From Haloarchaeobius iranensis (GTDB lineage Archaea > Halobacteriota > Halobacteria > Halobacteriales > Natrialbaceae): 64,000 bases of DNA. The stretch spans positions 186,001 through 250,000 of the forward strand of contig NZ_FNIA01000002.1 of assembly GCF_900103505.1 (NCBI RefSeq), given 5' to 3'. Made by a program: the position numbers and the translations under genes. Positions 2,901 through 15,122 of the stretch are shown piece after piece (the stretch's first letter is position 1; the number at the start of each line of letters is the position of its first letter). A model generated the notes under the pieces. It did not search any database. It saw nothing but the letters and a program-made list of their open reading frames with translations, and was not told where the DNA came from.

Positions 2901-3974
2901 TCAGAACAGGTCGTCGAGCTCGTCGTTCTGGAAGGCCGCCGTGTGGTCGACCTGCTCCTGCTGCTCCTGTGCCTCCCGGGCGCGCTCCATGAACTCGTCG
3001 ATGCGGGGGGAGCGTTCGACGCCGCCGAGCAGGACCAGCGCGGCGATGCGGTCGGAGTCGAGCGGGAAGTCGCCGCCCCGGACCTGGAGGCTGCCGGTCT
3101 GGTCCTCGACCCAGCTCCGGGCGCGCTCGACCCCCTTGCGCGGGATGGCGTCCGGCCGACCAGCGACGACGAGGAGGGCCGCGTCCGCCGTCACCGCGTC
3201 TGGGAGGCTCGTCCCGGTGAACAGTGCCGAGCGCGTGATGCTCGTGACCGCGTTGATGTTGTCCTCGGCGTCCTCGCCGCCAGCCGCGCTGGCGTAGCCG
3301 ACGCAGGCGATGCCGCCCTCGCGCAGCGTGTTGATGATCTCCGAGGAGTCGACGACGGACTCGCCGACGCCCTCGACGTTCTCCCCGGAGGCGAACAGCA
3401 GGCCGATCCGCTGGGCGATGTTCCGGTTGATGGTGTCGAAGGCGGCCTCGACGGACTCGCCGGCGTCGTGCCAGGCGTCGTTGTCGACGAGGATGGTCGA
3501 GTCGGCCTCCCGGACGATGGTCTTCAGCGAACGGCCGGCGTTGGCCTGGTACATCGAGCCCTCGCCGCGCCCGGGGAGGATGCCGAGCGCGTAGACGGGG
3601 ACGTCGTAGACACGTTTGAGCTCGCGGACGAGCACGGGCGCGCCGCCGGAGCCGGTGCCGCCACCGAGGCCGGCGACGACGAAGATCGCCTCGGCCTCCG
3701 CCGTGATCTTGCCGTCGAGGCCGTCCATCACCTCGATGGCGTCCTCCTGCATCACCTCGGCGCCGAGCTCGTTGTCGCCGCCGACGCCGTGGCCGCGCAC
3801 GCGGTCCTGGCCGATGAGCTGTGTCTCGATGTCGAGGGTCTGGAGGTCGGTCTCCGCCGTGTTCACCGCGAGCGCACCGCGGACGGCGTCGAAGTCCATC
3901 TCGTAGTCGAACTCGGCCATGGCCTGTGTGAGCTTCCCGCCGGCCTGGCCGACACCAATCAGGACGACTTTCAT
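2901..3974 (-). CDS. cetZ: CetZ tubulin-like GTPase, CetZ2-type
   Basis: A 357-residue tubulin/FtsZ-superfamily GTPase of the CetZ family, cytoskeletal proteins of haloarchaea linked to cell shape and motility. The N-terminal GTP-binding loop reads GVGQAGGK (7-14) and the tubulin signature GLGGGTGSGGAP spans about 102-113. NDELDDLF closes the chain, the short acidic C-terminal peptide usual for CetZ. It is shorter than CetZ1 (about 395 residues), and the wording around residues 55-120 (VRGHGVGGDNELGAEV) fits my memory of the CetZ2 group better. That subgroup call is from memory and moderate. Its start faces the start of the DUF7310 gene 77 bases away, so the two share a divergent promoter region. 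Confidence 0.9.
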   Translation of the reverse strand: MKVVLIGVGQAGGKLTQAMAEFDYEMDFDAVRGALAVNTAETDLQTLDIETQLIGQDRVRGHGVGGDNELGAEVMQEDAIEVMDGLDGKITAEAEAIFVVAGLGGGTGSGGAPVLVRELKRVYDVPVYALGILPGRGEGSMYQANAGRSLKTIVREADSTILVDNDAWHDAGESVEAAFDTINRNIAQRIGLLFASGENVEGVGESVVDSSEIINTLREGGIACVGYASAAGGEDAEDNINAVTSITRSALFTGTSLPDAVTADAALLVVAGRPDAIPRKGVERARSWVEDQTGSLQVRGGDFPLDSDRIAALVLLGGVERSPRIDEFMERAREAQEQQEQVDHTAAFQNDELDDLF

Positions 3975-4050
3975 GTCGGCAACGTCCGTGGAGGACGGGC
4001 GTAAACGTTCCGACAAATCGTTTTTGTGTGATGCCGCGGCCAGAGCGGTC

Positions 4051-4611
4051 ATGCCCGACGCCCTCGACGACAGGCTCCGCGCCGTCGAACGCGCGCTGGA
4101 CGGCTCGGACGACCGTGCCGCGAGCGTGACGACGACACCCGACGAGACGAGCACCGCTCGGCAGTCGGCACCAGCACACGCGAGAGACGGCGACCAGCTC
4201 GACGACCTCGAGTCGCGCCTCGACGCCGCCGAGACGGCCACCGCGGACCTCGAAGGCGCCGTCCAGGCGCTGCGTGGCTACGCCGGCAAGGTCCGGTCGG
4301 TCGACGAGCGGGTCGAGGAGCGTGCCGACGCTGCGCTCGCCGCGGTCGAGACGCTGGAGGACCGCGTCGACGAGTTGGAGTCACAGTCGACGCCGGTGCC
4401 CGAACGCCAGGGCCCCGGTCGCGACGAACACTGCCCGCACTGTGCCGGCCGCCGCGACGACGGTCGCCCGTCCGACGAGCCGCCAGCCGGGGGTCGACGC
4501 GAGCGGACGCTCGACGCCGGCTGGCCGACCTCGCCCGCGCCGCGCTTCGAACACGAGGACGGCGGCGACGCGAGCCGCGGGGTGCTCGCCCGGCTGCGGG
4601 ACCGGCTGTGA
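4051..4611 (+). CDS. DUF7310-type coiled-coil protein
   Basis: A 186-residue acidic protein. Residues 1-110 carry heptad-like Leu/Val/Ala spacing (DDRLRAVERAL; LDDLESRLDAAETATADL; AALAAVETLEDRVDELE) typical of a long coiled coil, followed by a CPHCAG cysteine pair and a disordered, Pro/Arg-rich tail. It opens the 4.0-13.8 kb pilus/secretion-like gene block and overlaps the next gene by one base (TGATG). A TTTTTGTGTG stretch about 30 bases upstream is a plausible promoter. The coiled-coil protein may be an assembly scaffold or regulator of the adjacent ATPase; this is inference from context only. Confidence 0.8.
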   Translation: MPDALDDRLRAVERALDGSDDRAASVTTTPDETSTARQSAPAHARDGDQLDDLESRLDAAETATADLEGAVQALRGYAGKVRSVDERVEERADAALAAVETLEDRVDELESQSTPVPERQGPGRDEHCPHCAGRRDDGRPSDEPPAGGRRERTLDAGWPTSPAPRFEHEDGGDASRGVLARLRDRL

Positions 4612-5063
4612 TGCGAGTCGTCCTCGCCGTCGCCGTCACGCTCGCCCTGTTCGCCGTCGCCGCGCCCGCCGCTGCCGAGGCCCGCGAGTACCGGAGTGAC
4701 CGCGTCGTCGCCGCTGACCTGACGACCCTCGAACGCGCAGGGACGGTACTGCTCGACAGGGAGGACCGGACGCCGGAGCCAGCGACCGGCGCACGTCGCT
4801 TCGTCACGCTCCGGGTGCCCGGCGAGAGCTGGACGACGGCGCGCGTCGACTGGGTCGCTCTCGGCGGCCGGCCCGGGGCCGCGACCCCCGACCCGAACGT
4901 CGTCGCGTACGCGCTCGCCGGCGGCGAGCCTCGAACTATCGAACTCCCGTTCCCGCTCCGCACCGACGGCGACGGGCCGCTCGTGCTCGAGGGTGGGGGC
5001 CGCTACGAGCTCCGACTGTCGCTCGCGCCGAACGGAGTCCATGTCCGGCGAGCCGGAGTTTAA
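4611..5063 (+). CDS. Exported protein of the pilus-like cluster (DUF7311-type)
   Basis: A 150-residue protein with a clear N-terminal hydrophobic signal or anchor (residues 2-20) ending in an AAPAAAEA stretch suited to signal peptidase cleavage. The rest is beta-rich and lacks cysteine, so a small cell-surface domain is likely. Translation is coupled to the upstream gene: its ATG overlaps the previous TGA. A GTG one codon earlier is an alternative start. Its TAA stop lies within GTTTAAAC, which probably also serves as the TATA box for the ATPase gene. The role is unknown; position implies a periplasmic-side component of the machine. Confidence 0.78.
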   Translation: MRVVLAVAVTLALFAVAAPAAAEAREYRSDRVVAADLTTLERAGTVLLDREDRTPEPATGARRFVTLRVPGESWTTARVDWVALGGRPGAATPDPNVVAYALAGGEPRTIELPFPLRTDGDGPLVLEGGGRYELRLSLAPNGVHVRRAGV

Positions 5064-5065
5064 AC
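5058..5065 (+). promoter_or_regulatory. TATA-like box for the secretion ATPase gene, containing the upstream stop codon
   Basis: GTTTAAAC lies 24-31 bases before the ATG at 5089, the right spacing for a leaderless transcript, and it includes the TAA stop of the preceding gene. It would allow the ATPase onward to be transcribed separately from the first two genes. Spacing is the only evidence for this role. Confidence 0.5.
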
Positions 5066-5088
5066 CGGAACGGGCGGGCAGGGTCGGC

Positions 5089-7014
5089 ATGGGAGCACTC
5101 CGTTCGCTGCTGACCGACGACGACGAGCGCTGTGGCTGCCAGCCCGCGTTCGAGACCGACCGGCTGCTGGTCGACGCGGGCGACTGCGCCGGTCGCGGGA
5201 ACCTCGCGGCCGAGCCGGGCTGCCGCGCCACCGTCGTCGCCGCGCTCGCCTCGCGCACCGCCGACCGCGTGGTCTGTCGCGCCGACGGCCTGGACCGCGC
5301 CTACGAGGACGACGCCGCGGCGCTGCTCGTCGCCGCCGGGCGCTTCGCCGAGACCGTCGCACACCGCGACCCGGCGCTGGCCGAGCGCGCGGAACGGGAC
5401 CCCCTCCGGGCGGCGGCCGACGCGGAGGCCCGCGCCGACCAGGTCGCCGATGCGGCCGCCGAGACGGGTCTCGCGCTCGCCGCAGAGCGTGCCCGGGAGG
5501 TCGCGTCGACCGACGCCACGGCTTCGGAGCGCGTCCCGTACGAGGCAGTGCTCCGCCCGTACGTCGGCCCGTCGCTGGCCCGTGCGAGGGTCGCCGCGAC
5601 GCCACCGCCGGGGGCGACGCTGCTCGACGCCCGCGAGACGGACACCGACGCAGCGGTCCGCGAGTACGAGGACGCAGTCGGGCGACGGCGCTACCACGTC
5701 GAGCCCGTCGAGCACCGGCTGGGCGCGGCGAGCCTCCGGACGCTGGACACCGCGTACGAACGACTCGCGTCGGGCACCGGCGAGACGGCCGGCGGCGGCC
5801 GACGCGCGCCGGGCCGGGCCGTTCGAGCCGTCGCGGGCGACGACGACCCGGTCGAGACGCTCTCGGCGGTCCTCCGGAAGCACACCCGCGGCCACGGCGT
5901 GCTGACGGACTGCTTCGCCGACGAGGCGGTCTCGGACGTGTTCGCCTCCGCGCCGGTCACCGGGACCCCGCTCCGGGTGACCGCTGACGGGCACACCATG
6001 CCGACGAACGTGCGGCTGACGGCCGACGGGGCGGCGGCGCTCGCCTCGCGCTTCCGTCGCGAGAGCGGCCGCGCGTTCTCCAGAGCAAGCCCGACGCTCG
6101 ACGCGACGGCAACGGTCGCCGGCACGCAGGTCAGGGTCGCGGGGGTCACCGAGCCGGTGAGCGACGGCTACGGCTTCGCCTTCCGGCGCTCGGGCACCGA
6201 GGCGTGGACGCTCCCACGGCTCGTCGCGGTCGACTCCGTGACGCCACGAGCCGCCGCCTTGCTCTCGCTGGCTGTCGAGCGTGCTGCCGCCACGCTCGTC
6301 GCCGGGACCCGCGGCGCGGGCAAGACCACGACGCTCGGCGCGCTCCTGTGGGAGCTACCCCCCGAGACGCGGACCGTCGTCATCGAGGACACGCCCGAAC
6401 TCCCCGTCGCGAGCCTCCAGACCCACGGTCGGGACGTGCAGGCGCTCCGGACCGCGACGGACGACGGGCCGAGCGTCGCCCCCGACGAGGCGCTCCGGAC
6501 GGCGCTCCGGCTGGGAGAGGGCGCCCTCGTCGTCGGCGAGGTCCGCGGCGAGGAGGCCCAGGTGCTGTACGAGGCGATGCGCGTCGGCGCGAGCGGGAGT
6601 GCGGTGCTGGGAACAATCCACGGCGACGGCGGCGCGGACGTCGAGGAGCGCGTCGTCTCCGACCTCGGCGTGCCGGTCTCCTCGTTCGCCGTCACCGACC
6701 TCGTCGTCACGCTCCGGCCGCTCGACACCCCGGATGGGAGCGTTCGGCGCGTCTGCCGCATCGAGGAGGTCCGCGCCGCCGACGACGGCGTCACCTTCGC
6801 GCCGCTGTTCGAACTCGACGGTCGCTCGCTCGAACCGACGGGGCGGATCGACCGCGGCGAGAGCGAACTCGTCGCGACGCTGGCCCGTCCCGGCGAGAGC
6901 TACGCCGAGGTGCGCGAGACGCTGACTGAGCGGGCCGACGCCATCGCCTCGCTGGCCGACGACGGGCGGACCGGCCCCGAAGCGGTGGCACCCGTGCCGG
7001 GTGGACAGCCGTGA
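5089..7014 (+). CDS. Type II/IV secretion (PilB/TadA/VirB11-type) ATPase
   Basis: A 641-residue assembly ATPase that would power pilin or fibre polymerisation from the cytoplasmic face. The divergent N-terminal 240 residues include a Cys pair near residue 15 (CGC). The motor domain follows, with Walker A GTRGAGKTT (about 406-414), VVIEDTPELP as the Asp box, Walker B VVGEVRGEEA (about 482-491) and a His box near GTIHGDG. The ATG at 5089 follows a TATA-like GTTTAAAC at leaderless distance; an ATG at 5041 would overlap the previous gene. The stop overlaps the platform-protein start (GTGA). Archaeal relatives drive pili, archaella and adhesive structures; which one applies here is not shown. Confidence 0.92.
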   Translation: MGALRSLLTDDDERCGCQPAFETDRLLVDAGDCAGRGNLAAEPGCRATVVAALASRTADRVVCRADGLDRAYEDDAAALLVAAGRFAETVAHRDPALAERAERDPLRAAADAEARADQVADAAAETGLALAAERAREVASTDATASERVPYEAVLRPYVGPSLARARVAATPPPGATLLDARETDTDAAVREYEDAVGRRRYHVEPVEHRLGAASLRTLDTAYERLASGTGETAGGGRRAPGRAVRAVAGDDDPVETLSAVLRKHTRGHGVLTDCFADEAVSDVFASAPVTGTPLRVTADGHTMPTNVRLTADGAAALASRFRRESGRAFSRASPTLDATATVAGTQVRVAGVTEPVSDGYGFAFRRSGTEAWTLPRLVAVDSVTPRAAALLSLAVERAAATLVAGTRGAGKTTTLGALLWELPPETRTVVIEDTPELPVASLQTHGRDVQALRTATDDGPSVAPDEALRTALRLGEGALVVGEVRGEEAQVLYEAMRVGASGSAVLGTIHGDGGADVEERVVSDLGVPVSSFAVTDLVVTLRPLDTPDGSVRRVCRIEEVRAADDGVTFAPLFELDGRSLEPTGRIDRGESELVATLARPGESYAEVRETLTERADAIASLADDGRTGPEAVAPVPGGQP

Positions 7015-8771
7015 GCACGGTGGGAGCCGTAGCCGTTCGAGCCCTGGCCCGTGGCTACCCGTGGCCGGTCGAGTCGAGCGACGACCTCGCCCGGGCACTC
7101 GGCTTCGTCGGGAGCGAGCTTGACGCCGCGACGGTCGTCCGAGCGGGCTACGTCGCCGGCGCGCTGGCTGCTCTCGTCGGCACCGCCGCCGCAGTCGTGC
7201 TCTCGCTCGCGCCGACGACCGTCCCGCTCGTGGCTGCCGCGCTCGGCCTCGCGGCGACACACGCCGTCCACGCTACCCCGGGGGCACTGGCCAGGGCTCG
7301 CCGGACAGCGGCCCTCGGTGACGCACCGGGGCTCGTCGGCCGCGCCGTCCTGCGGATGCACGTCGAACCGGCGGCCGAGCGTGCCGCCGCCTTCGCCGCC
7401 GAGACCGACGACGGGCCGCTGGCGCGGAGCCTCGCGACCCACGTTCGCCGTTCCCGTGGCGCGCCCGGCTCCGGACTCGGCGGCTTCGCCGACGAGTGGG
7501 GCGAGGAGTTCCCCGCGCTCCGCCGAGCCCTCCACCTCGTCGACGCGGCCGCCGACGCGCCGTCGGGCGAGCGAGGGCGCAGCCTCGACCGGGCGATGAC
7601 GGCCGTCACGCGCGGGACCCGCGACCGGATGGCCGAGTTCGGTGCCCGCATCCAGGGGCCGGCGACCGGGCTCTACGCCTTCGGCGTGCTCCTTCCGCTC
7701 GCGCTCGTCGCCGTGCTCCCCGCCGCACGGGTCGCCGGCGTCCCGGTCACCGTCGGCGCGCTGGTACTGGTCTACGACGTGGCGCTCCCCGGGTGCCTGC
7801 TCGCCGCGAGCGGCTGGCTCTTCACACGGCGTCCCGTCGCGTTCCCCCCACCGTCGGTGCCGCGCTCGCATCCCGACGTGCCCGACCAGCCCTGGCGCGC
7901 GGTCGCAGCCGGACTCGGTGCCGCCGTCGCGAGCGCGGCGCTGGCAGGTGTCGTCGCACCGGCGTGGACGGCACCACTGGTCGGCGTCGCGATGGGTGCC
8001 GGCGTCGCACTCCTCGTCCGCTATCGCCCCATCGCGGCGGTCCGGGACCACGCACGGGCCGTCGAGGCGGGCCTCGTCGACGCCCTCTACCTCGTCGGCC
8101 GGCGCGTGAGCGAGGGCACCGCCGTCGAGACGGCCGTCGAACGCGCCGCCGCGGAGGTCGAGGGCGAGACAGGCGAGACGTTCGCCGCGGCCGCCGACCG
8201 CCAGCGCCAGCTCCGCGTCGGCGTCGAGCGCGCGTTCCTCGGCGACCACGGCGCGCTCGCGGACGTGCCGAGTCCACGAGCGAGAGGGACCGCCACCCTG
8301 CTCGGCCTCGCCAGCGAGGAGGGCGCGCCGGCGGGGCGGGCGCTCGTCTCGATGGCCGACCACCTCGCCGACCTGCAGGCGCTCGAACGGGAGTGCCGGA
8401 ACGACCTCGCCCGCGTGACGGGGACGCTCGCCAGTACGGCGACGACGTTCGGCCCGCTCGTCGCCGGTGCGACGGTCGCCCTGGCGGCGGGGATGGGGGG
8501 CGGGGCCGGAGGCACAGCGGCGACGGGCCTCACCGACGGTTCGACAGGGACCGGTTCCAGCGCGACCGGCGTCCCGCCGCTCCCGACGGCCGAGCTCGGC
8601 CTGGTCGTCGGGATCTACGTCTGTCTGCTGGCGGTCGTCCTCACCGTTCTCTCGACCGGGCTCCGCCACGGTCTCGACCGCGCCCTCGTCGGCCACCACG
8701 TCGGCCGGGCGCTCCCGACCGCCGTCTGCGTCTACGTCGGGAGCGTCGTCGCTGCGGGCGTGGTCGTCTGA
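7011..8771 (+). CDS. Type II secretion system F (PilC/TadC-type) membrane platform protein
   Basis: A 586-residue polytopic protein with the T2SSF arrangement: paired hydrophobic segments near 45-85, 220-270, 300-345 and three near the C-terminus (about 480-500, 525-545, 565-585). Between them are two cytoplasmic helical regions where T2SSF domains normally sit, the second marked by LYLVGRRVSEGTAVETAVE. Such proteins form the inner-membrane platform on which the ATPase acts. The GTG start overlaps the ATPase stop by four bases, so the pair is translationally coupled. A Gly/Thr-rich loop (about 495-522) precedes the last helices. Confidence in the platform role is high; the transported subunit is unknown. 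Confidence 0.88.
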   Translation: MSTVGAVAVRALARGYPWPVESSDDLARALGFVGSELDAATVVRAGYVAGALAALVGTAAAVVLSLAPTTVPLVAAALGLAATHAVHATPGALARARRTAALGDAPGLVGRAVLRMHVEPAAERAAAFAAETDDGPLARSLATHVRRSRGAPGSGLGGFADEWGEEFPALRRALHLVDAAADAPSGERGRSLDRAMTAVTRGTRDRMAEFGARIQGPATGLYAFGVLLPLALVAVLPAARVAGVPVTVGALVLVYDVALPGCLLAASGWLFTRRPVAFPPPSVPRSHPDVPDQPWRAVAAGLGAAVASAALAGVVAPAWTAPLVGVAMGAGVALLVRYRPIAAVRDHARAVEAGLVDALYLVGRRVSEGTAVETAVERAAAEVEGETGETFAAAADRQRQLRVGVERAFLGDHGALADVPSPRARGTATLLGLASEEGAPAGRALVSMADHLADLQALERECRNDLARVTGTLASTATTFGPLVAGATVALAAGMGGGAGGTAATGLTDGSTGTGSSATGVPPLPTAELGLVVGIYVCLLAVVLTVLSTGLRHGLDRALVGHHVGRALPTAVCVYVGSVVAAGVVV

Positions 8772-8789
8772 GGGTTCAAGTACGAACCC
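8772..8789. promoter_or_regulatory. Inverted repeat GGGTTC-N6-GAACCC upstream of the DUF7283 gene
   Basis: A perfect 6-bp inverted repeat with a 6-bp spacer begins one base after the platform-gene stop and ends 15 bases before the ATG at 8805. Its centre, TTCAAGTACG, falls at TATA distance, so it could be an internal promoter with an overlapping operator, or a short RNA hairpin. Function is inferred from position alone. Confidence 0.35.
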
Positions 8790-8804
8790 GCGGCCAGAGT
8801 CGGC

Positions 8805-9281
8805 ATGTTCGACGCACCACCCGACGCCTGGTACATCTGGGTCAGCGTGGCACTCGCCAGCGTCGCCGTCGCCGGCGTCGCGACCGAGCTGCCAAGCCGC
8901 CCCGCGCCCGACGCCGCCGCCGCCGCGGACACCGTCGACGCCGTCGCGGGCTCGACCTACGCGAGCGCCGGCGAGCACCCGCTCGACGCGGACCGGGTCC
9001 GGCTCCGCCCGCACCGGCTCGCGCTCCGGACCGACGGCGAGACGAGCCACGCGACGTTCGCGTTCGGCCCCGTCGTGCCCGTCGGCGACGACCCCGCGCT
9101 CGCTCGGGTCGCACGCGGCGTCCCACCGGGGCGGGCGTTCGGCTCGGTGACCGCCTTCGAGGCGGCAATCGAGGCCGCCAGAGAGCGCGCGAGCGACGCC
9201 GGCTGGCGTCCCGTGACTGACCGACTCGTCGTCAGACATCTCGAATGGGGTGAGGTGGATGTCACGCTGGTCGACGCGTAG
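8805..9281 (+). CDS. DUF7283-type single-helix membrane protein of the pilus-like cluster
   Basis: A 158-residue protein that opens with MFDAPPDAWYIWVSVALAS, so one N-terminal membrane helix (about 8-28) is followed by an extracytoplasmic acidic domain. I recognise the opening as the haloarchaeal DUF7283 pattern. There is no cysteine or known enzyme motif. It overlaps the next gene by 23 bases, which supports membership of the same operon. One helix at the extreme N-terminus plus a globular domain is the general design of a pilin-like or minor-pilin subunit, but no processing site is evident. Confidence 0.78.
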   Translation: MFDAPPDAWYIWVSVALASVAVAGVATELPSRPAPDAAAAADTVDAVAGSTYASAGEHPLDADRVRLRPHRLALRTDGETSHATFAFGPVVPVGDDPALARVARGVPPGRAFGSVTAFEAAIEAARERASDAGWRPVTDRLVVRHLEWGEVDVTLVDA

Positions 9282-9651
9282 GGGGCAGGTCGAGCCGACG
9301 GCCGCACTCGTCGCCGTCTTCGCCGTCGCGGTCGGGCTCACGCTGTACGCCGGCGCCCTCGACTCGCTCCCCGCCGCCGAGGACTCGCGCAGTGTCGCGG
9401 AGCCGACCCTCTCGCGTGTCCACGAGTCGCTGACCGCGACCGGTGTCGCCAACCCCGCCGACCTGCACGACACGCTCGCGGCCGGCCCGGACGGCTACCA
9501 CGTCGCGGTGACGCTCGCAGCCGACGGCGAACGCTGGCGCGTCGGGCCGGCAGCCCCGCCGACCGCTGCGACCGCCGCGCGCCCGGTCAGCGTCCGTATC
9601 GCGGCGGGCGTTGTCGTCTCGGGGCGGCTCCGCGTGGAGGTGTGGGCGTGA
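9259..9651 (+). CDS. DUF7285-type pilin-like protein
   Basis: A 130-residue protein starting MSRWSTRRGQVEPTAAL: a short basic segment, then one hydrophobic helix (about 14-32) and an extracytoplasmic domain of about 95 residues. The RRGQ-E-P-hydrophobic arrangement resembles archaeal class III (prepilin-type) leaders, in which a charged n-region precedes an H-domain that stays with the mature subunit. That likeness is my inference. The ATG at 9259 is preferred over an in-frame GTG at 9250. The gene overlaps its upstream neighbour, and its TGA overlaps the next GTG. Confidence 0.72.
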   Translation: MSRWSTRRGQVEPTAALVAVFAVAVGLTLYAGALDSLPAAEDSRSVAEPTLSRVHESLTATGVANPADLHDTLAAGPDGYHVAVTLAADGERWRVGPAAPPTAATAARPVSVRIAAGVVVSGRLRVEVWA

Positions 9652-10556
9652 GTCCAGCCGCCGGGAACGGCGATGGTCGTGCCGTCAGCACGGTGCTCGA
9701 CGTGGCTGTCTGCCTGCTGTTCGTCACCGCGGCCGTCGGAGTGCTCGCGACCGCAGACCGACCGGCCCCGGACGACTCGAACAGCGCCGACCGCGCGGCT
9801 TCCTTGCTCGGAACGACGACCGCGACGGTGCACTACGCCACGGCCGGCGGGGGCGGTACCGCGCCCGAGCGCGCGACCGTCGCGTGTCGACCGGCCACCG
9901 GCGAGACGCGGCCCGACGGCTGTCGAACCGCCCACGGGACGGTCGCGGACCTCCTCGCCCGTGCCGCAGTCGCCGACGTGGCCGACAACGAGAGCACGGG
10001 TCCCTCGCGGTTCGAGCAGGGCGTGCGGAACGCAACCCGGCAGCGACTCGCGGGAATCCAGGCCTCCTGGCAGGTCGTCGTCACGTGGCGGGGGTACCCC
10101 GACGCACCGCTCGGGGGACGCGTCGCGGTCGGGGGCGGCCCGCCACCGGGCATCGACGTCCACACCGCGACGCTCCGGGTGCCCGTTGCCGACGGGCCCG
10201 CCCGTGCTGGCACCGACGGGGACGCGATGACCGTCGATGCAGTCGGGCGGCGGGCCGCGAGCGCGACGGTTACACGCCTGTTCCCACCCGAGCCGACCCG
10301 ACTCGCACTCGTGGCCGGCTCGCCGGCAGACCGACGAACGGCCGGGCGGTACCGCCGAACTGCCGCCACACTCGGCGTGGGACTCGACGGTGCTCTCGCG
10401 GACGGCTCGGTCAGGCGGGCCAACGACATCCTCGTCGGGGCGCTCGCGGCACGGTACGCCCGCGACCTCGACGCGAGAACGGGTACCGCCAGCGACGCCG
10501 CGGCGCTCGTCTCGGTGGAGACTGCGACGGTCACCGTCAGGACGTGGTCGGCGTGA
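9648..10556 (+). CDS. DUF7284-type pilin-like protein
   Basis: A 302-residue protein with the N-terminal sequence DGRAVSTVLDVAVCLLF, a charged residue then a hydrophobic helix (about residues 10-34). This resembles archaeal pilins of the RAVS/RGVSPVIG type, although the usual Pro-Val-Ile-Gly is absent. A large, mostly polar extracytoplasmic domain follows, with a Cys pair near residues 80 and 92 (ACRPATGE, DGCRTAHG). The GTG start overlaps the upstream stop and the gene's own TGA overlaps the next GTG. It is probably a structural or minor subunit of the same surface machine. Confidence 0.72.
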   Translation: MSPAAGNGDGRAVSTVLDVAVCLLFVTAAVGVLATADRPAPDDSNSADRAASLLGTTTATVHYATAGGGGTAPERATVACRPATGETRPDGCRTAHGTVADLLARAAVADVADNESTGPSRFEQGVRNATRQRLAGIQASWQVVVTWRGYPDAPLGGRVAVGGGPPPGIDVHTATLRVPVADGPARAGTDGDAMTVDAVGRRAASATVTRLFPPEPTRLALVAGSPADRRTAGRYRRTAATLGVGLDGALADGSVRRANDILVGALAARYARDLDARTGTASDAAALVSVETATVTVRTWSA

Positions 10557-13500
10557 GACTCGCGGACGACGAACGGGCTCGCGTCCCGTTCGCCATCGTC
10601 GGCGTGCTGCTGCTCGTGAGCAGCGCGACGCTCGCGACGACGTTCCTCACGCGTCCGTCCGGTGGTGCCGAGGCCGACGGCGACGCCGCGATGGAGCGCG
10701 CCGACGCCGCTGTGACGACCGCGCTTCGGGCGGCGGTCGACCGCGCGGCCCGGAACGCGGCCGCCGATCCGGTCGTCACCCCCGCGAACACGACGTACGG
10801 ACGGGTATTGAACGAGTCGCGAGCGTTCCGTGACGCGCTCGAACTCAGGGTGTACCTGCAGGCACGCCGGGCGCTGGCCGGCATCGAGGCCAGCGCCGGG
10901 GAGGCACGGGTGACCGCCGACCTCCCGCCCATCGACGGGCCAGCCGACGCGCGTGCCGCCATCGAACGCGTCTCGCTCGCGCGGACGGGCAACGGGACGG
11001 TCTCCGTGGCCATCGCGAACGTCTCGGCGACGCTCTGGCGACACGACCGCTTCGTCGACCGCCGCACGACGACGGTCCGGTTCACGAGTGCGACGCCGGT
11101 GCTGGTCGCCCACGACCGGGTAGCCGAGTACGAGCGACGACTGAACCGCGGTCCGACCGAGGGCCGAGGGCTGGGCCGGCAGTTCGCCTCGCGGCTGTAC
11201 GCCTGGACGTGGGCCCGTGGCTACGCGCAGTTCGGCGGCCTCCCGGTCGACAACGTCCTCGGGAACCGTCACGTCTCGCTGTCGGCGAACGAGGCCGCGC
11301 TCGCCACCCAGCGCGGCGTCTTCGGGACGAGCGACGACGCCGGCCGGCGGGCACTCGGTCGGGCCCGCGGCCGGCTGCTGGCACAGGAGGCCGTCGACCA
11401 GACACCGGGCGAGACCGGTATCAGTCCGGCCCAGTGGACCGACCTCGTCCTCGGCGAGCCGGACGGCTCGTTCGCCGACGCGACCCCGGACGTGGCCCCG
11501 GTCCCCGAGACGGGCACCCCACCGACGACGCACGACGACCCGGTGACAGTCGGGGTGAACGAGAGTGCGGCCGAGGCCTTCCGCCGGCTGCTCGACGGCG
11601 ACGGCGGCCCGACGCTCGAACGGCTCGTCCGACGGACCTACAGCGCGTCGGTCCGGGTCCACGCGACCTCGAGGCAGGTCGCAGCGGAGCCGGCGCTGCC
11701 CGCACGGCCCCCCGGACCAGGCTGGGAACGACGGGGGCGTCGTACCACCCGGACGGTGACAGTCGACTCCGGCTCCGCCCCGGTCCCAACGCGGGCGCCG
11801 GGTTCGACGCGGTTCCTGACCTTCGAGCGAGTGGTCACCGTCACCGAGACCACGACCACGGCCTGGGCCCGGGGCGGGAACCGGACCGAGACCGAGCGCA
11901 CGTCGAACCGGACGTACCGGGTCGGCGTCGCGGTCGACGCGGCACCCGCCGCGCTCGCACCGGGCTCCGATGGCCGCGTCGCGGGTGCGTTCCAGCCAGG
12001 TGGCGTGCTCGGTGGGGAGACACCGTCAGCGGTCCGCCAGCCCGTGCGGTCGGTCCTCGCCGACCGCGGCGGGCCGGACGCCGTCGCCGCCGCCGCAGCG
12101 AGGGGGCAACTCGACGAGTCGCCGACGGTGGTCTTCGGCCCGCCGCCAGAAGACGCGACGGACACGGCGTATCTCGCTGCCGCTGCACTGCGGGACCGGA
12201 CGCGGAACCGCTCGGTGACGACGACGCGCGGCGACCTCGTGACGACGGCGACGCCGGCCGCCTCGTTGGCCGACGGCATCGCAGCCGACCGTCCCGAGCT
12301 CGTTTCGGCGGGCGACCCCTACCCGAGTGTCTCGGCCCGGCTTCGGGCCGCCGCCCGGGCCGCCTACCTCGACCGCCTCCTCGACGAACTCGGGTCGCGT
12401 GCCGACGCGACCGCCCGGAGCCGCGACGGGGCAGACGAGGCCCTCTCGGACCACGGCCACTCGCTCGCCGAGGCCGACGCGACGATGAACGCGAGTGCGA
12501 ACACCACCAGACGGGCGGCCCCGCCCGTGGGGACCGCGGGGCCGGCGGGCCAGGTCTCGTTCGAGGTGGCCGCTGCCCCGTCGTACCTCGTCACGAGCGA
12601 GCTCGATACCGACCGTGCGCGAGCGGTACGAGCGGACGGCTTCGCACCCCTTGCCGCACGCAACGTGAACCTGTTCACCGTGCCCTACGGCGCGGCCGCC
12701 GACACCGTGACCCGACAGGTCGACCGGGGAGCCAGCGGCGACCGCGTCGCGCTCGCGACCGGGAGTCCGGCACTCGCCGCGATGGAGCACGCCGGCCGTG
12801 TCGCCGAGAACGCCAGTGCGCGCCAGCGCCGGGCGCGACTCCGTGATGCGGTCGGCAGTTCGCTGGCGAGCGTCAGAGCACAGGTCGCGACCGACCTCGC
12901 GACCACCACGACGCTCGCCCACTCCGAGGCGAACGCCGCCGTCGCAGCCGCGTACGAGCAGTATCCGACGGACGCAGCGAGAGCGGCGGCAGTCGTGAAC
13001 GGGTCGCTGGTGCCGCACATCGCCCACGAGGCAGCGGACCGAATAGCGACAGACGGCGACGGTGGCGCGGCACCGAGCGCCCGACAGCGCGACGAACTCC
13101 GTCTCAGGGCACGGACCGCGCTCCGAACCGCCAGGCAGTCCGAAGCCGCCCGGCTGCCGCAGGGTCCGGTCGGGGACGCGAGCAGCTTCCTCCGCGACCG
13201 ACAGCGGAGCCTCGTGTCCGCCGGTGCCCGGTCGGCCCTCCAGAACGGCGTCGAGGGGTATCTGAACGGCAGCAGCGACGAGGAGGTGCCACACACCTTC
13301 TCTGGCGTCCCGCTGGTCCCGATGTACTCGTGGGTCGTCACGACGAACGTCTGGGTAGTCGAGGTTCGCGGGACCTACCCGCGGTTCGCCGTGCGAGCGG
13401 ACCGGGGGACGCCAGCGGCACCGGGCGGGTTCGACTACAGCCGCGACGGCGCGCCGGTCGCGTTCGACGTGAACGGCGACGGCACCGCCGAGCGAGTCGG

Positions 13501-13846
13501 CCACGCCGACCGCGTCGCGTTCGAGAACAGCGTCGCCGTCGTCATCGCGGTGCCAGCCGGCAAACAGGGTGTCGGAGACCGGAACGGCGTCGCGGACGAG
13601 CACACCAGTGGCTGGCCCTGTCCCAGTCCCGGCCGCTGGCCGGACCCGACCGGACCCGGCACGGACGCGGGAGCCGAAAACGCGTCCGATTGCAGCACTG
13701 ACTTGTACACGTCGGGCCGAACGGACGACCATGTTCCACGAACACCGGACCGACGTGTCGGGACAGTCGCCACCCGAGCTGGAAGCCGAGTACGCCGCAG
13801 ACCTCGCCGCCATCGTCGAGGACCACGGCGTGGACGCCGTCGTTGA
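10553..13846 (+). CDS. DUF7286-type giant extracytoplasmic protein of the pilus-like cluster
   Basis: At about 1,097 residues this is the largest protein of the block: one N-terminal helix (about 11-31, VPFAIVGVLLLVSSATLATT) and more than 1,000 extracytoplasmic residues rich in Ala, Arg, Asp and Thr, with many N-x-S/T sequons. The GTG at 10553 overlaps the previous stop. The C-terminal 100 residues include a conserved-looking VVIAVPAGKQGVGD stretch. The last 40 or so are Arg-rich and basic (RRRPRRHRRG), unlike the rest, and run 116 bases into the next gene. The natural stop may therefore have been lost or lie behind a frameshift near 13650-13720. The function of the family is unknown; it may be a tip or scaffold protein. 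Confidence 0.75.
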   Translation: MRLADDERARVPFAIVGVLLLVSSATLATTFLTRPSGGAEADGDAAMERADAAVTTALRAAVDRAARNAAADPVVTPANTTYGRVLNESRAFRDALELRVYLQARRALAGIEASAGEARVTADLPPIDGPADARAAIERVSLARTGNGTVSVAIANVSATLWRHDRFVDRRTTTVRFTSATPVLVAHDRVAEYERRLNRGPTEGRGLGRQFASRLYAWTWARGYAQFGGLPVDNVLGNRHVSLSANEAALATQRGVFGTSDDAGRRALGRARGRLLAQEAVDQTPGETGISPAQWTDLVLGEPDGSFADATPDVAPVPETGTPPTTHDDPVTVGVNESAAEAFRRLLDGDGGPTLERLVRRTYSASVRVHATSRQVAAEPALPARPPGPGWERRGRRTTRTVTVDSGSAPVPTRAPGSTRFLTFERVVTVTETTTTAWARGGNRTETERTSNRTYRVGVAVDAAPAALAPGSDGRVAGAFQPGGVLGGETPSAVRQPVRSVLADRGGPDAVAAAAARGQLDESPTVVFGPPPEDATDTAYLAAAALRDRTRNRSVTTTRGDLVTTATPAASLADGIAADRPELVSAGDPYPSVSARLRAAARAAYLDRLLDELGSRADATARSRDGADEALSDHGHSLAEADATMNASANTTRRAAPPVGTAGPAGQVSFEVAAAPSYLVTSELDTDRARAVRADGFAPLAARNVNLFTVPYGAAADTVTRQVDRGASGDRVALATGSPALAAMEHAGRVAENASARQRRARLRDAVGSSLASVRAQVATDLATTTTLAHSEANAAVAAAYEQYPTDAARAAAVVNGSLVPHIAHEAADRIATDGDGGAAPSARQRDELRLRARTALRTARQSEAARLPQGPVGDASSFLRDRQRSLVSAGARSALQNGVEGYLNGSSDEEVPHTFSGVPLVPMYSWVVTTNVWVVEVRGTYPRFAVRADRGTPAAPGGFDYSRDGAPVAFDVNGDGTAERVGHADRVAFENSVAVVIAVPAGKQGVGDRNGVADEHTSGWPCPSPGRWPDPTGPGTDAGAENASDCSTDLYTSGRTDDHVPRTPDRRVGTVATRAGSRVRRRPRRHRRGPRRGRRR

Positions 13847-14162
13847 GGAGACGGGACTGGACCGGGCGCTCGTCGAGTCCCTCGCGAACGAGGAGGTTCC
13901 GGCCGAGCTGACACTGGCGCAGGCCGCGGCGGTCCAGGCGCTGGCCGACGGCGTCGCCGACGCCGACACCGTCCGCGAGATGGCCTGCGAGCACCTCCTG
14001 CTCGGGATGACGACCGGCGTCCTCGACATCGACGCCGTGACCGCGGAGCTGCCGCTGAACCTGGAGGCCACGGAGGTCCAGCAGAAGATCGAGCGCCGCG
14101 CCCCGATGACGTTCCGCGAGTTCGTCCACATCCAGCACGTCATCGCGACGCACCAGCCGTAG
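13731..14162 (+). CDS. DUF5791 family protein
   Basis: A 143-residue acidic, helical, soluble protein. It contains a helix-turn-helix-like sequence around residues 38-65 (VVEETGLDRALVESLANEE, then LTLAQAAAVQALAD) and ends with a second helical domain (FREFVHIQHVIA). The arrangement fits the haloarchaeal DUF5791 family as I remember it, with LLLGMTTGVLDIDAV as the hallmark. A TTGTACAC box 28 bases upstream supports a leaderless start at this ATG. It overlaps the extended tail of the preceding gene by 116 bases in another frame, a sign that the preceding stop is not the ancestral one. Function unknown. Confidence 0.82.
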   Translation: MFHEHRTDVSGQSPPELEAEYAADLAAIVEDHGVDAVVEETGLDRALVESLANEEVPAELTLAQAAAVQALADGVADADTVREMACEHLLLGMTTGVLDIDAVTAELPLNLEATEVQQKIERRAPMTFREFVHIQHVIATHQP

Positions 14163-14231: not shown

Positions 14232-15122
14232 ATGCGCGTCGCGATTCTCGGCTGCGGCTACGTCGGTATCGAACTGGGACGACAGCTGACCGAGGCGGGA
14301 CACGACGCGGTCGGGGTCAGGCGCTCGGCCGACGGGCTGGCGGCCATCGAGGCGGCGGGGTTCGAGGCGGTCGAAGCCGACCTCACCGACGACGAGAGCC
14401 TCACGACCGTCCCGGACGTGGACGCCGTCGTCTTCGCCGCGAGCACCGGCGGGCGCGGTGCCGACGCCGCGCGCCGCATCTACGTCGACGGGCTGCGGAC
14501 CGTCCTCGACCACTTCGCCGCCCGCGAGTCGCCTCCCGACCGTCTGGTCTACACCTCCAGCACGGGCGTCCACGGCGACCACGACGGCGACTGGGTGGAC
14601 GAGTCGACGCCGCTCGACCCGACGACGCCGAAGACCGAGGTGCTCGTCGCGGCCGAGGACCTGGCGCTGGACGCGGGGGAGACCCACGGTATCGACGGCA
14701 CCGTCGCGCGCTTCGCCGGGCTGTACGGCCCCGACCGCTACCGGCTGGAGCGCTACCTGTCCGGGCCGGTCACGGAGGGCTACCTCAACATGGTCCATCG
14801 GGACGACGCGGCCGGGTCGGTCCGATTCCTGCTGGCGGACGACCTCGCCCGTGGTGCGGTCGTGCAGGTCGTCGACGACGAACCCGTCTCGAAGTGGGCG
14901 TTCGCCGACTGGCTCGCGGAGCAGTGCGACGTCCCGGAGCCGCCGAAGCAGACCAAGGCGGACCGGCTCGCCGACCCCGGACTCTCCGACGCGGCGAAAC
15001 GACGCATCCGGACGTCGAAGCGCTGCTCGAACGAGCGGCTCCGCGAGCTCGGCTACGAGCTCCGGTATCCGACGTTCCGGGCCGGCTATCGCGCCGCTGT
15101 CGGGGAGTATCGGGTGGAGTGA
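14232..15122 (+). CDS. NAD(P)-binding SDR-type epimerase/reductase
   Basis: A 296-residue atypical/extended short-chain dehydrogenase. The Rossmann motif is at the N-terminus (ILGCGYVG, residues 5-12). VYTSSTGVHG near 108-117 replaces the active-site Ser region, and the usual YxxxK is not obvious (TPKTEVLVAAED follows). This pattern matches the YeeZ/WcaG-like group of NAD(P)-dependent epimerase-like proteins with unknown substrates. It is cytoplasmic, with no membrane segment. The gene follows DUF5791 after 69 bases and is followed by the DHH gene after 43 bases with its own promoter-like CTTCTTACTC, so co-transcription is possible but not required. Confidence 0.85.
   Translation: MRVAILGCGYVGIELGRQLTEAGHDAVGVRRSADGLAAIEAAGFEAVEADLTDDESLTTVPDVDAVVFAASTGGRGADAARRIYVDGLRTVLDHFAARESPPDRLVYTSSTGVHGDHDGDWVDESTPLDPTTPKTEVLVAAEDLALDAGETHGIDGTVARFAGLYGPDRYRLERYLSGPVTEGYLNMVHRDDAAGSVRFLLADDLARGAVVQVVDDEPVSKWAFADWLAEQCDVPEPPKQTKADRLADPGLSDAAKRRIRTSKRCSNERLRELGYELRYPTFRAGYRAAVGEYRVE

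Follow-up and report, generated by a model that had tools for sequence, protein, structure and literature searches.

A probable haloarchaeal subclade 4F-type, cetZ2-linked type IV pilus assembly cluster with a giant signature subunit and three conserved promoter elements

Two in silico accounts describe the archaeal systems that lie closest to the locus studied here. In the classification of Makarova, Koonin and Albers (2016; PMC4858521), as far as the accessible part of that paper goes, subclade 4F combines an ATPase with a Cys-rich N-terminus and a TadC protein, and an FtsZ-family gene lies nearby; an intracellular coiled-coil protein is unique to the halobacterial version, and the PilA-family major pilin is most often encoded by a stand-alone gene. 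Brown and Duggin (2023; PMC9856176), in the portion of the text available, describe a pilB2/C2 regulon that adjoins cetZ2, together with an epimerase/dehydratase gene and a second conserved gene. Judged from the same portions, both accounts are predictions. The clade labels conflict between papers, Haloferax PilB2 being placed in 4C by Legerme and Pohlschroder (2019; PMC6491452). Our literature search retrieved no experiment on the locus and no paper naming DUF7286.

The window, i.e., the whole 64,000-nucleotide stretch of Haloarchaeobius iranensis contig NZ_FNIA01000002.1 that was analysed, had previously been read from its sequence without database searches. This sequence-only reading had proposed that eight genes encode a complete surface or secretion machine built from uncharacterised families. 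The eight ORFs proved to be real, are all on the + strand and match Pfam families, the platform weakly (Table 1). The coiled-coil protein and the exported protein that had been noted beside the ATPase and the platform correspond to DUF7310 and DUF7311, respectively. Downstream of the cluster, a gene for a DHH protein is found in addition to the DUF5791 and epimerase genes; from synteny, DUF5791 is probably arCOG04674 and the epimerase probably arCOG03095, and we infer that DUF7310 is arCOG07564. Conservation was followed in 41 loci (40 haloarchaeal regions picked by the presence of DUF7286, and the window). All eight genes were co-located in each of the 41, which excludes chance. Absence of the DUF genes from homologous loci, named in the sequence-only reading as an outcome that would speak against it, was thus not seen in this synteny survey.

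Table 1. Genes, neighbours and promoter elements of the cluster (positions in the window).
Feature	Position	Strand	Match or remark
CetZ (tubulin-like) gene	2901..3974	-	CetZ_C 6.7e-67, Tubulin 3.3e-32; divergent neighbour, upstream in 35/41 loci
Promoter element 1, TTTTTG-N11-GGCCA	4021..4042	+	30 bp 5' of DUF7310 ATG; same format in relatives; TATA half degenerate here
DUF7310, coiled-coil cytoplasmic protein	4051..4611	+	Pfam 6.8e-22; no TM segment
DUF7311, exported, one N-terminal membrane/signal helix	4611..5063	+	Pfam 3e-39
Promoter element 2, TTTAAA-N11-GGGCA	5059..5080	+	30 bp 5' of ATPase ATG 5089
PilB/T2SSE-family assembly ATPase, Cys4 N-terminal region	5089..7014	+	T2SSE 3.1e-17; alternative upstream ATG 5041
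PilC/TadC-like multi-span platform	7011..8771	+	T2SSF 0.0049; at least 5 TM segments; adjoins ATPase in relatives
Promoter element 3, TTCAAG-N11-GGCCA	8775..8796	+	30 bp 5' of DUF7283 ATG; exact match
DUF7283, one N-terminal TM, no class III motif	8805..9281	+	Pfam 1.4e-54
DUF7285, predicted prepilin, class III signal RRG/QVEP	9259..9651	+	Pfam 1.4e-36
DUF7284, one N-terminal TM, RA/VSTV start	9648..10556	+	Pfam 4e-74
DUF7286, giant pilin-like protein, 1097 aa, RA/RVPFAIVG start	10553..13846	+	Pfam E=0, 1019 bits
DUF5791 neighbour	13731..14162	+	Pfam 9.8e-45; in 40/41 loci
NAD-dependent epimerase neighbour	14232..15122	+	Epimerase 2.9e-16; in 37/41 loci

The ATPase, recognised earlier by its Walker A and B motifs, has intact GTRGAGKTT, EDTPEL, GEVRG and TIHG motifs in addition to its T2SSE match. 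Alignment of 29 ATPases showed that Walker A, EDTPEL, GEVRG and TIHG are invariant or nearly so and that four cysteines (C15, C17, C33 and C45, numbered in the 641-aa form) are invariant in all 29; the N-terminal region is likewise Cys-rich in the methanogen relatives. The closest named relative is that of Haloarchaeobius sp. FL176 (92% identity). Except in G045, a single ATPase is set apart from all others in each tested genome that has DUF7286, with E<1e-115 versus ~1e-43 or weaker for the next match. Two other identities were rejected: the FlaI model scored 89 bits where the NCBIfam cut-off is 550, which is not compatible with an archaellum ATPase (ArlI/FlaI), and the NCBIfam models of conjugation ATPases remained far below their cut-offs. 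In-frame stops were observed in DUF7286 at one locus (L044) and in several ATPase matches, suggesting occasional decay or sequencing error. The T2SSF match of the platform is below the curated cut-off; its pattern of TM segments, its adjacency to the ATPase and its conservation are concordant and agree with the PilC/TadC-type assignment made previously.

Because its gene content matches both subclade 4F and the cetZ2-linked pilB2/C2 regulon, we do not regard the cluster as a new machine: it is probably a haloarchaeal subclade 4F-type, cetZ2-linked pilB2/C2 type IV pilus assembly system. With subclade 4F, as presented in the accessible part of PMC4858521, it has in common the Cys-rich ATPase, the TadC partner, the coiled coil, the FtsZ-family neighbour and predicted pilins, the match being one of gene content with the ATPase set apart by its E-values. 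However, the cluster contains no PilA-family major pilin, and no discussion of DUF7286 or of its co-occurrence with the ATPase was found in that part of the paper. With the regulon of PMC9856176 it shares the same cetZ, the pil regulon, the epimerase/dehydratase and the second conserved gene; that paper maps synteny, and the portion available did not yield a treatment of promoters, of subunit structure or of the methanogen set. The adhesion pili assembled by Haloferax PilB1-C1 and PilB3-C3 (PMC6491452) likewise depend on an ATPase and a platform, with some of the pilins and the peptidase encoded elsewhere, but the ATPase of the cluster forms a separate family by the E-values given above. The H. 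salinarum pil-2 locus (PMC4292770) was considered as the same system and discarded: its seven-gene, 6.9-kb layout is unlike that of the cluster, and Makarova et al. assign it to 4C in the accessible text (PMC4858521). The machine is therefore of the type IV filament kind and made of uncharacterised families, as had been proposed, whereas its novelty did not hold since the available parts of PMC4858521 and PMC9856176 already predict the class. What is added here is the giant signature subunit, the five-protein set, the three promoters and a candidate regulon.

The four late proteins each have a single N-terminal hydrophobic helix, as had been noted, and DUF7311 has one too, so that five proteins of the cluster (DUF7311, DUF7283, DUF7285, DUF7284 and DUF7286) share this topology. 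A strict class III motif is present in 66 of 75 DUF7285 sequences. DUF7286, the protein said to exceed 1,000 residues, starts with a R[GA]/R[VI]PFAL motif in 63 of 64 sequences, the Arg at +1 being non-standard. The R[AG]xST motif of DUF7284 is found in about two-thirds of the relatives and lost in about one-third (counted by eye). No clear class III motif was found in DUF7283 or DUF7311; the latter weakly matches the DUF7285 profile (0.0039). The two prepilin-like starts recognised earlier, those of DUF7285 and DUF7284, therefore stand, but their number was underestimated, the third being the RA/RVPF start of DUF7286.

In the AlphaFold model of DUF7285 (pLDDT 85), a helix at the N-terminus precedes an antiparallel sheet of four strands, an order that is pseudopilin-like, and most of the body of DUF7286 is well modelled (pLDDT 80.8, pTM 0.74). 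A structural comparison of the single-helix proteins had been called for; it returned the helix and sheet of DUF7285, but Foldseek searches of the PDB with the DUF7285 and DUF7286 models gave no match at E<=0.001. Searching PDB sequences with the DUF7286 and DUF7285 profiles likewise gave nothing significant, the top DUF7285 match being an archaellin at E=0.28. As profile-profile comparisons among the DUF families were weak (highest probability 11%), we do not claim common ancestry of the five subunits. A pilin fold is thus suggested, not proven, and the proteins are termed pilin-like on account of their signals, topology and context. The last ~75 residues of DUF7286 (window 13620-13846) lie outside the Pfam domain, are modelled with a confidence mostly <50 and have an arginine-rich end; the corresponding DNA overlaps the start of the DUF5791 gene, and long tails occur in congeners too.

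No recognisable major pilin or peptidase was found in the cluster, so that its completeness, which had been proposed, is not supported. The sole Peptidase_A24 match of the genome is on another contig (C53), a usual arrangement in archaea and in agreement with the earlier remark that no prepilin peptidase gene adjoins the cluster, and 11 Pilin_N loci are present elsewhere in the genome. These locations indicate that processing, and possibly the major pilin, are supplied from elsewhere. Other haloarchaeal systems likewise encode pilins and peptidase away from PilB-C, according to the accessible part of PMC4858521.

We asked how DUF7286 is distributed relative to the ATPase. Among 292 genomes of the haloarchaeal class, DUF7286 was found in 224 and the ATPase (E<=1e-80) in 215, and when both lists were compared visually and by their totals, all 215 lay within the 224. 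In nine haloarchaea, some of them fragments, DUF7286 occurs but this ATPase does not. In a 295-genome sample of the phylum, 76 genomes carried DUF7286, 75 the ATPase and 72 both (72 of the 79 with either one), although the genomes of both samples are related and these counts do not represent independent events. DUF7286 is thus a signature subunit that co-occurs with the ATPase genome by genome. The two are found together in 33 genomes outside haloarchaea, on the methanogen side; in those checked, they are not neighbours and the ATPase-platform pair sits elsewhere. At the methanogen DUF7286 loci, genes resembling DUF7285 and DUF7284 can be recognised, and others resembling DUF7311 and DUF7283 occupy the expected positions; the five-protein pilin-like set thus recurs in recognisable form in methanogens, apart from the ATPase. 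In one genome (G045, locus L126), DUF7285, DUF7284 and DUF7286 lie beside two CetZ genes; the ATPase, the platform, DUF7310, DUF7311 and DUF7283 were not detected at this locus, and the genome has no ATPase of this family.

The persistence of the set apart from the ATPase, and the absence of a pilin fold match for DUF7285 and DUF7286, would fit a different reading in which the five DUF proteins form a static envelope complex and are not filament subunits, the ATPase and the platform being borrowed as an insertion motor. We consider this improbable, as the prepilin-type starts are conserved in DUF7285 and DUF7286 and the co-occurrence with the ATPase is near-strict at the genome level.

A second reading makes the cluster a type II-like secretion system or pseudopilus, the five proteins acting as a short piston that drives a substrate, whose gene may lie elsewhere, across the S-layer. 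In bacteria, sets of small subunits with one much larger one are known from the minor pseudopilin tip of type II secretion systems and type IV pili (GspH-I-J-K) and from the Tad system (TadE/F/G). The cluster, with its constant complement of small proteins and a single large one, resembles such minor pseudopilin sets, although no sequence or fold match to GspH-I-J-K or TadE/F/G was found and DUF7286 is several times larger; the lack of an evident, abundant major pilin among its genes would also fit. In methanogens (locus L112, 12059-18422; locus L117, 1-4381), we observed an exported ~200-aa protein encoded 3' of DUF7286, several copies of which have a PGF-CTERM-like tail, with tandem copies alternating with C-terminal fragments of DUF7286; this protein could be taken as a point in favour of secretion. 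On the other hand, PilA-type pilins are available in trans from the 11 Pilin_N loci, related haloarchaeal PilB-C pairs make pili from pilins encoded elsewhere (accessible part of PMC4858521), and no linked substrate gene is seen in haloarchaea. We give the secretion reading a minor, if appreciable, chance. The reading as a filament machine is preferred because of the Pfam identities, the conservation in 41/41 loci (with CetZ in 35), the motifs and Cys4 region of the ATPase, the agreement with the published predictions, the class III signals, the co-occurrence of DUF7286 with the ATPase, the recurrence of the five-protein set in methanogens, the helix and sheet modelled for DUF7285, and the peptidase and Pilin_N loci elsewhere in the genome; counted against it were the lack of a pilin structure match, the weak profile-profile comparisons, the missing class III motifs, the absence of a major pilin and the nine haloarchaea that have DUF7286 without the ATPase.

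Three elements of a common promoter format accompany the genes of the cluster. In relatives this format is TTYAAR-N11-GRCCA, its TATA-like hexamer lying ~30 bp 5' of the start codon; the element is 22 bp long in 69 of 71 cases, and element 3 is at the same place in 38 of 42 relatives. A search of 41 regions of 18 kb gave 75 matches versus 4 in a reversed control. By annotation, 60 of these precede DUF7310, the ATPase or DUF7283, and approximately 13 of the other 15 are the same promoters with a mis-picked start, as read from their positions and from a start codon ~30 bp further on. The element was found in relatives in no case before DUF7311, PilC, DUF7285, DUF7284 or DUF7286, nor upstream of cetZ (0/35). 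From the conserved position of the promoter, the start of the ATPase is assigned to the conserved ATG at 5089, the one at 5041 being a possible alternative. The near-continuous overlaps of 1-23 bases reported earlier need correcting in front of the ATPase, where the 23-base overlap had been counted from ATG 5041: the start at 5089 leaves a 25-base gap that overlaps the promoter. Nor do the genes form a single overlapping run, as promoter-bearing gaps precede both the ATPase and DUF7283. From the distance between promoter and ATG, the cluster is predicted to be transcribed as three leaderless units: DUF7310-DUF7311, PilB-PilC and DUF7283-DUF7285-DUF7284-DUF7286.

The promoter is not private to the cluster, as the element also precedes other genes. 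Matches followed by an ATG 8 bases on number 4 in the genome of the window and 6 in a congener, with none in the controls, and a stricter form of the element gave 22 matches in nine other genomes versus 1 in the control. Across genera, the genes behind the element encode a protein with a NucS-like N-domain and a zinc ribbon (six genomes), a HerA-like ATPase (four genomes), and DUF7857 directly followed by a MinD-like protein, or MinD alone (seven genomes); DUF7310, a TFB (once) and, in the genome of the window, a Cas4-like gene are also found, and several further matches have no convincing gene behind them. Since the same genes recur behind the promoter across genera, we consider the element real; on this comparison of sequences it may mark either one regulon or a class of promoters served by one particular TFB. 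In one genome the DUF7857-MinD pair has a TFB gene as its neighbour, and in another a TFB gene is itself preceded by the element (L222, L240). The same element is also followed by a ~85-nt GC-rich repeat that starts with GGCGTGyCCTGA (GTGnCCTGA element), at loci L198, L200, L202, L208 and L210 of the window's genome, where it mostly ends near GCCGCCTGTTCGCC, and at L229 and L230 in other genera. The repeat had no Rfam match of merit and its single-sequence folding was not unusually stable; it is possibly a dispersed small RNA family.

These promoter-sharing genes bear on a further reading, that of a competence-like DNA-exchange pilus, co-regulated with a MinD/ParA ATPase, the HerA-like ATPase and the NucS-like protein and serving DNA uptake or transfer. 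The MinD, HerA-like and NucS-like genes have this rare promoter format in common in several genera, and the Cas4-like gene carries it in the genome of the window. However, the link is one of promoter similarity only, the match of the NucS-like protein is confined to the N-terminal domain of NucS plus a zinc ribbon, and the format, being found before TFB and other genes as well, might represent a general class of promoters; moreover, when Haloferax is kept under mating conditions, cetZ2 expression decreases at the majority of time points (PMC7749143). We attach a low probability to DNA exchange as the role of the pilus. The broader notion of the cluster as the core of a rare-leaderless-promoter regulon, in which the pilus, DUF7857-MinD, the HerA-like and NucS-like proteins and the RNA-like element would make up a contact or DNA-exchange programme with a DUF7286-tipped filament, is unlikely as well, albeit worth considering.

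For the pilus assembly system that we favour, the following mechanism can be proposed. PibD, encoded elsewhere, would trim DUF7285, DUF7286 and often DUF7284, and PilB-PilC would push the pilin-like proteins, possibly with unlinked PilA-type pilins, through the membrane to yield a thin filament or a pseudopilus. The set of five pilin-like proteins may form a priming or tip complex of fixed composition, in which the giant DUF7286 would be the distal, environment-facing subunit, comparable to GspK or to the TadG-like large subunits of bacteria. DUF7310 and CetZ might position or gate the motor from the cytoplasmic side. The tip model, with DUF7286 outermost in the five-protein complex, is held with far less confidence than the class assignment. 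The physiological output may be adhesion, cell contact or DNA exchange.

Judged by DUF7286, the system is present in about three-quarters of the haloarchaeal genomes sampled (224/292), with a nearly fixed gene set. The signature subunit DUF7286, the three promoters and the genes that share them turn a vague pilus-like locus into a testable one and, if the regulon holds, would provide co-regulated partners for the pilus and a clue to its function.
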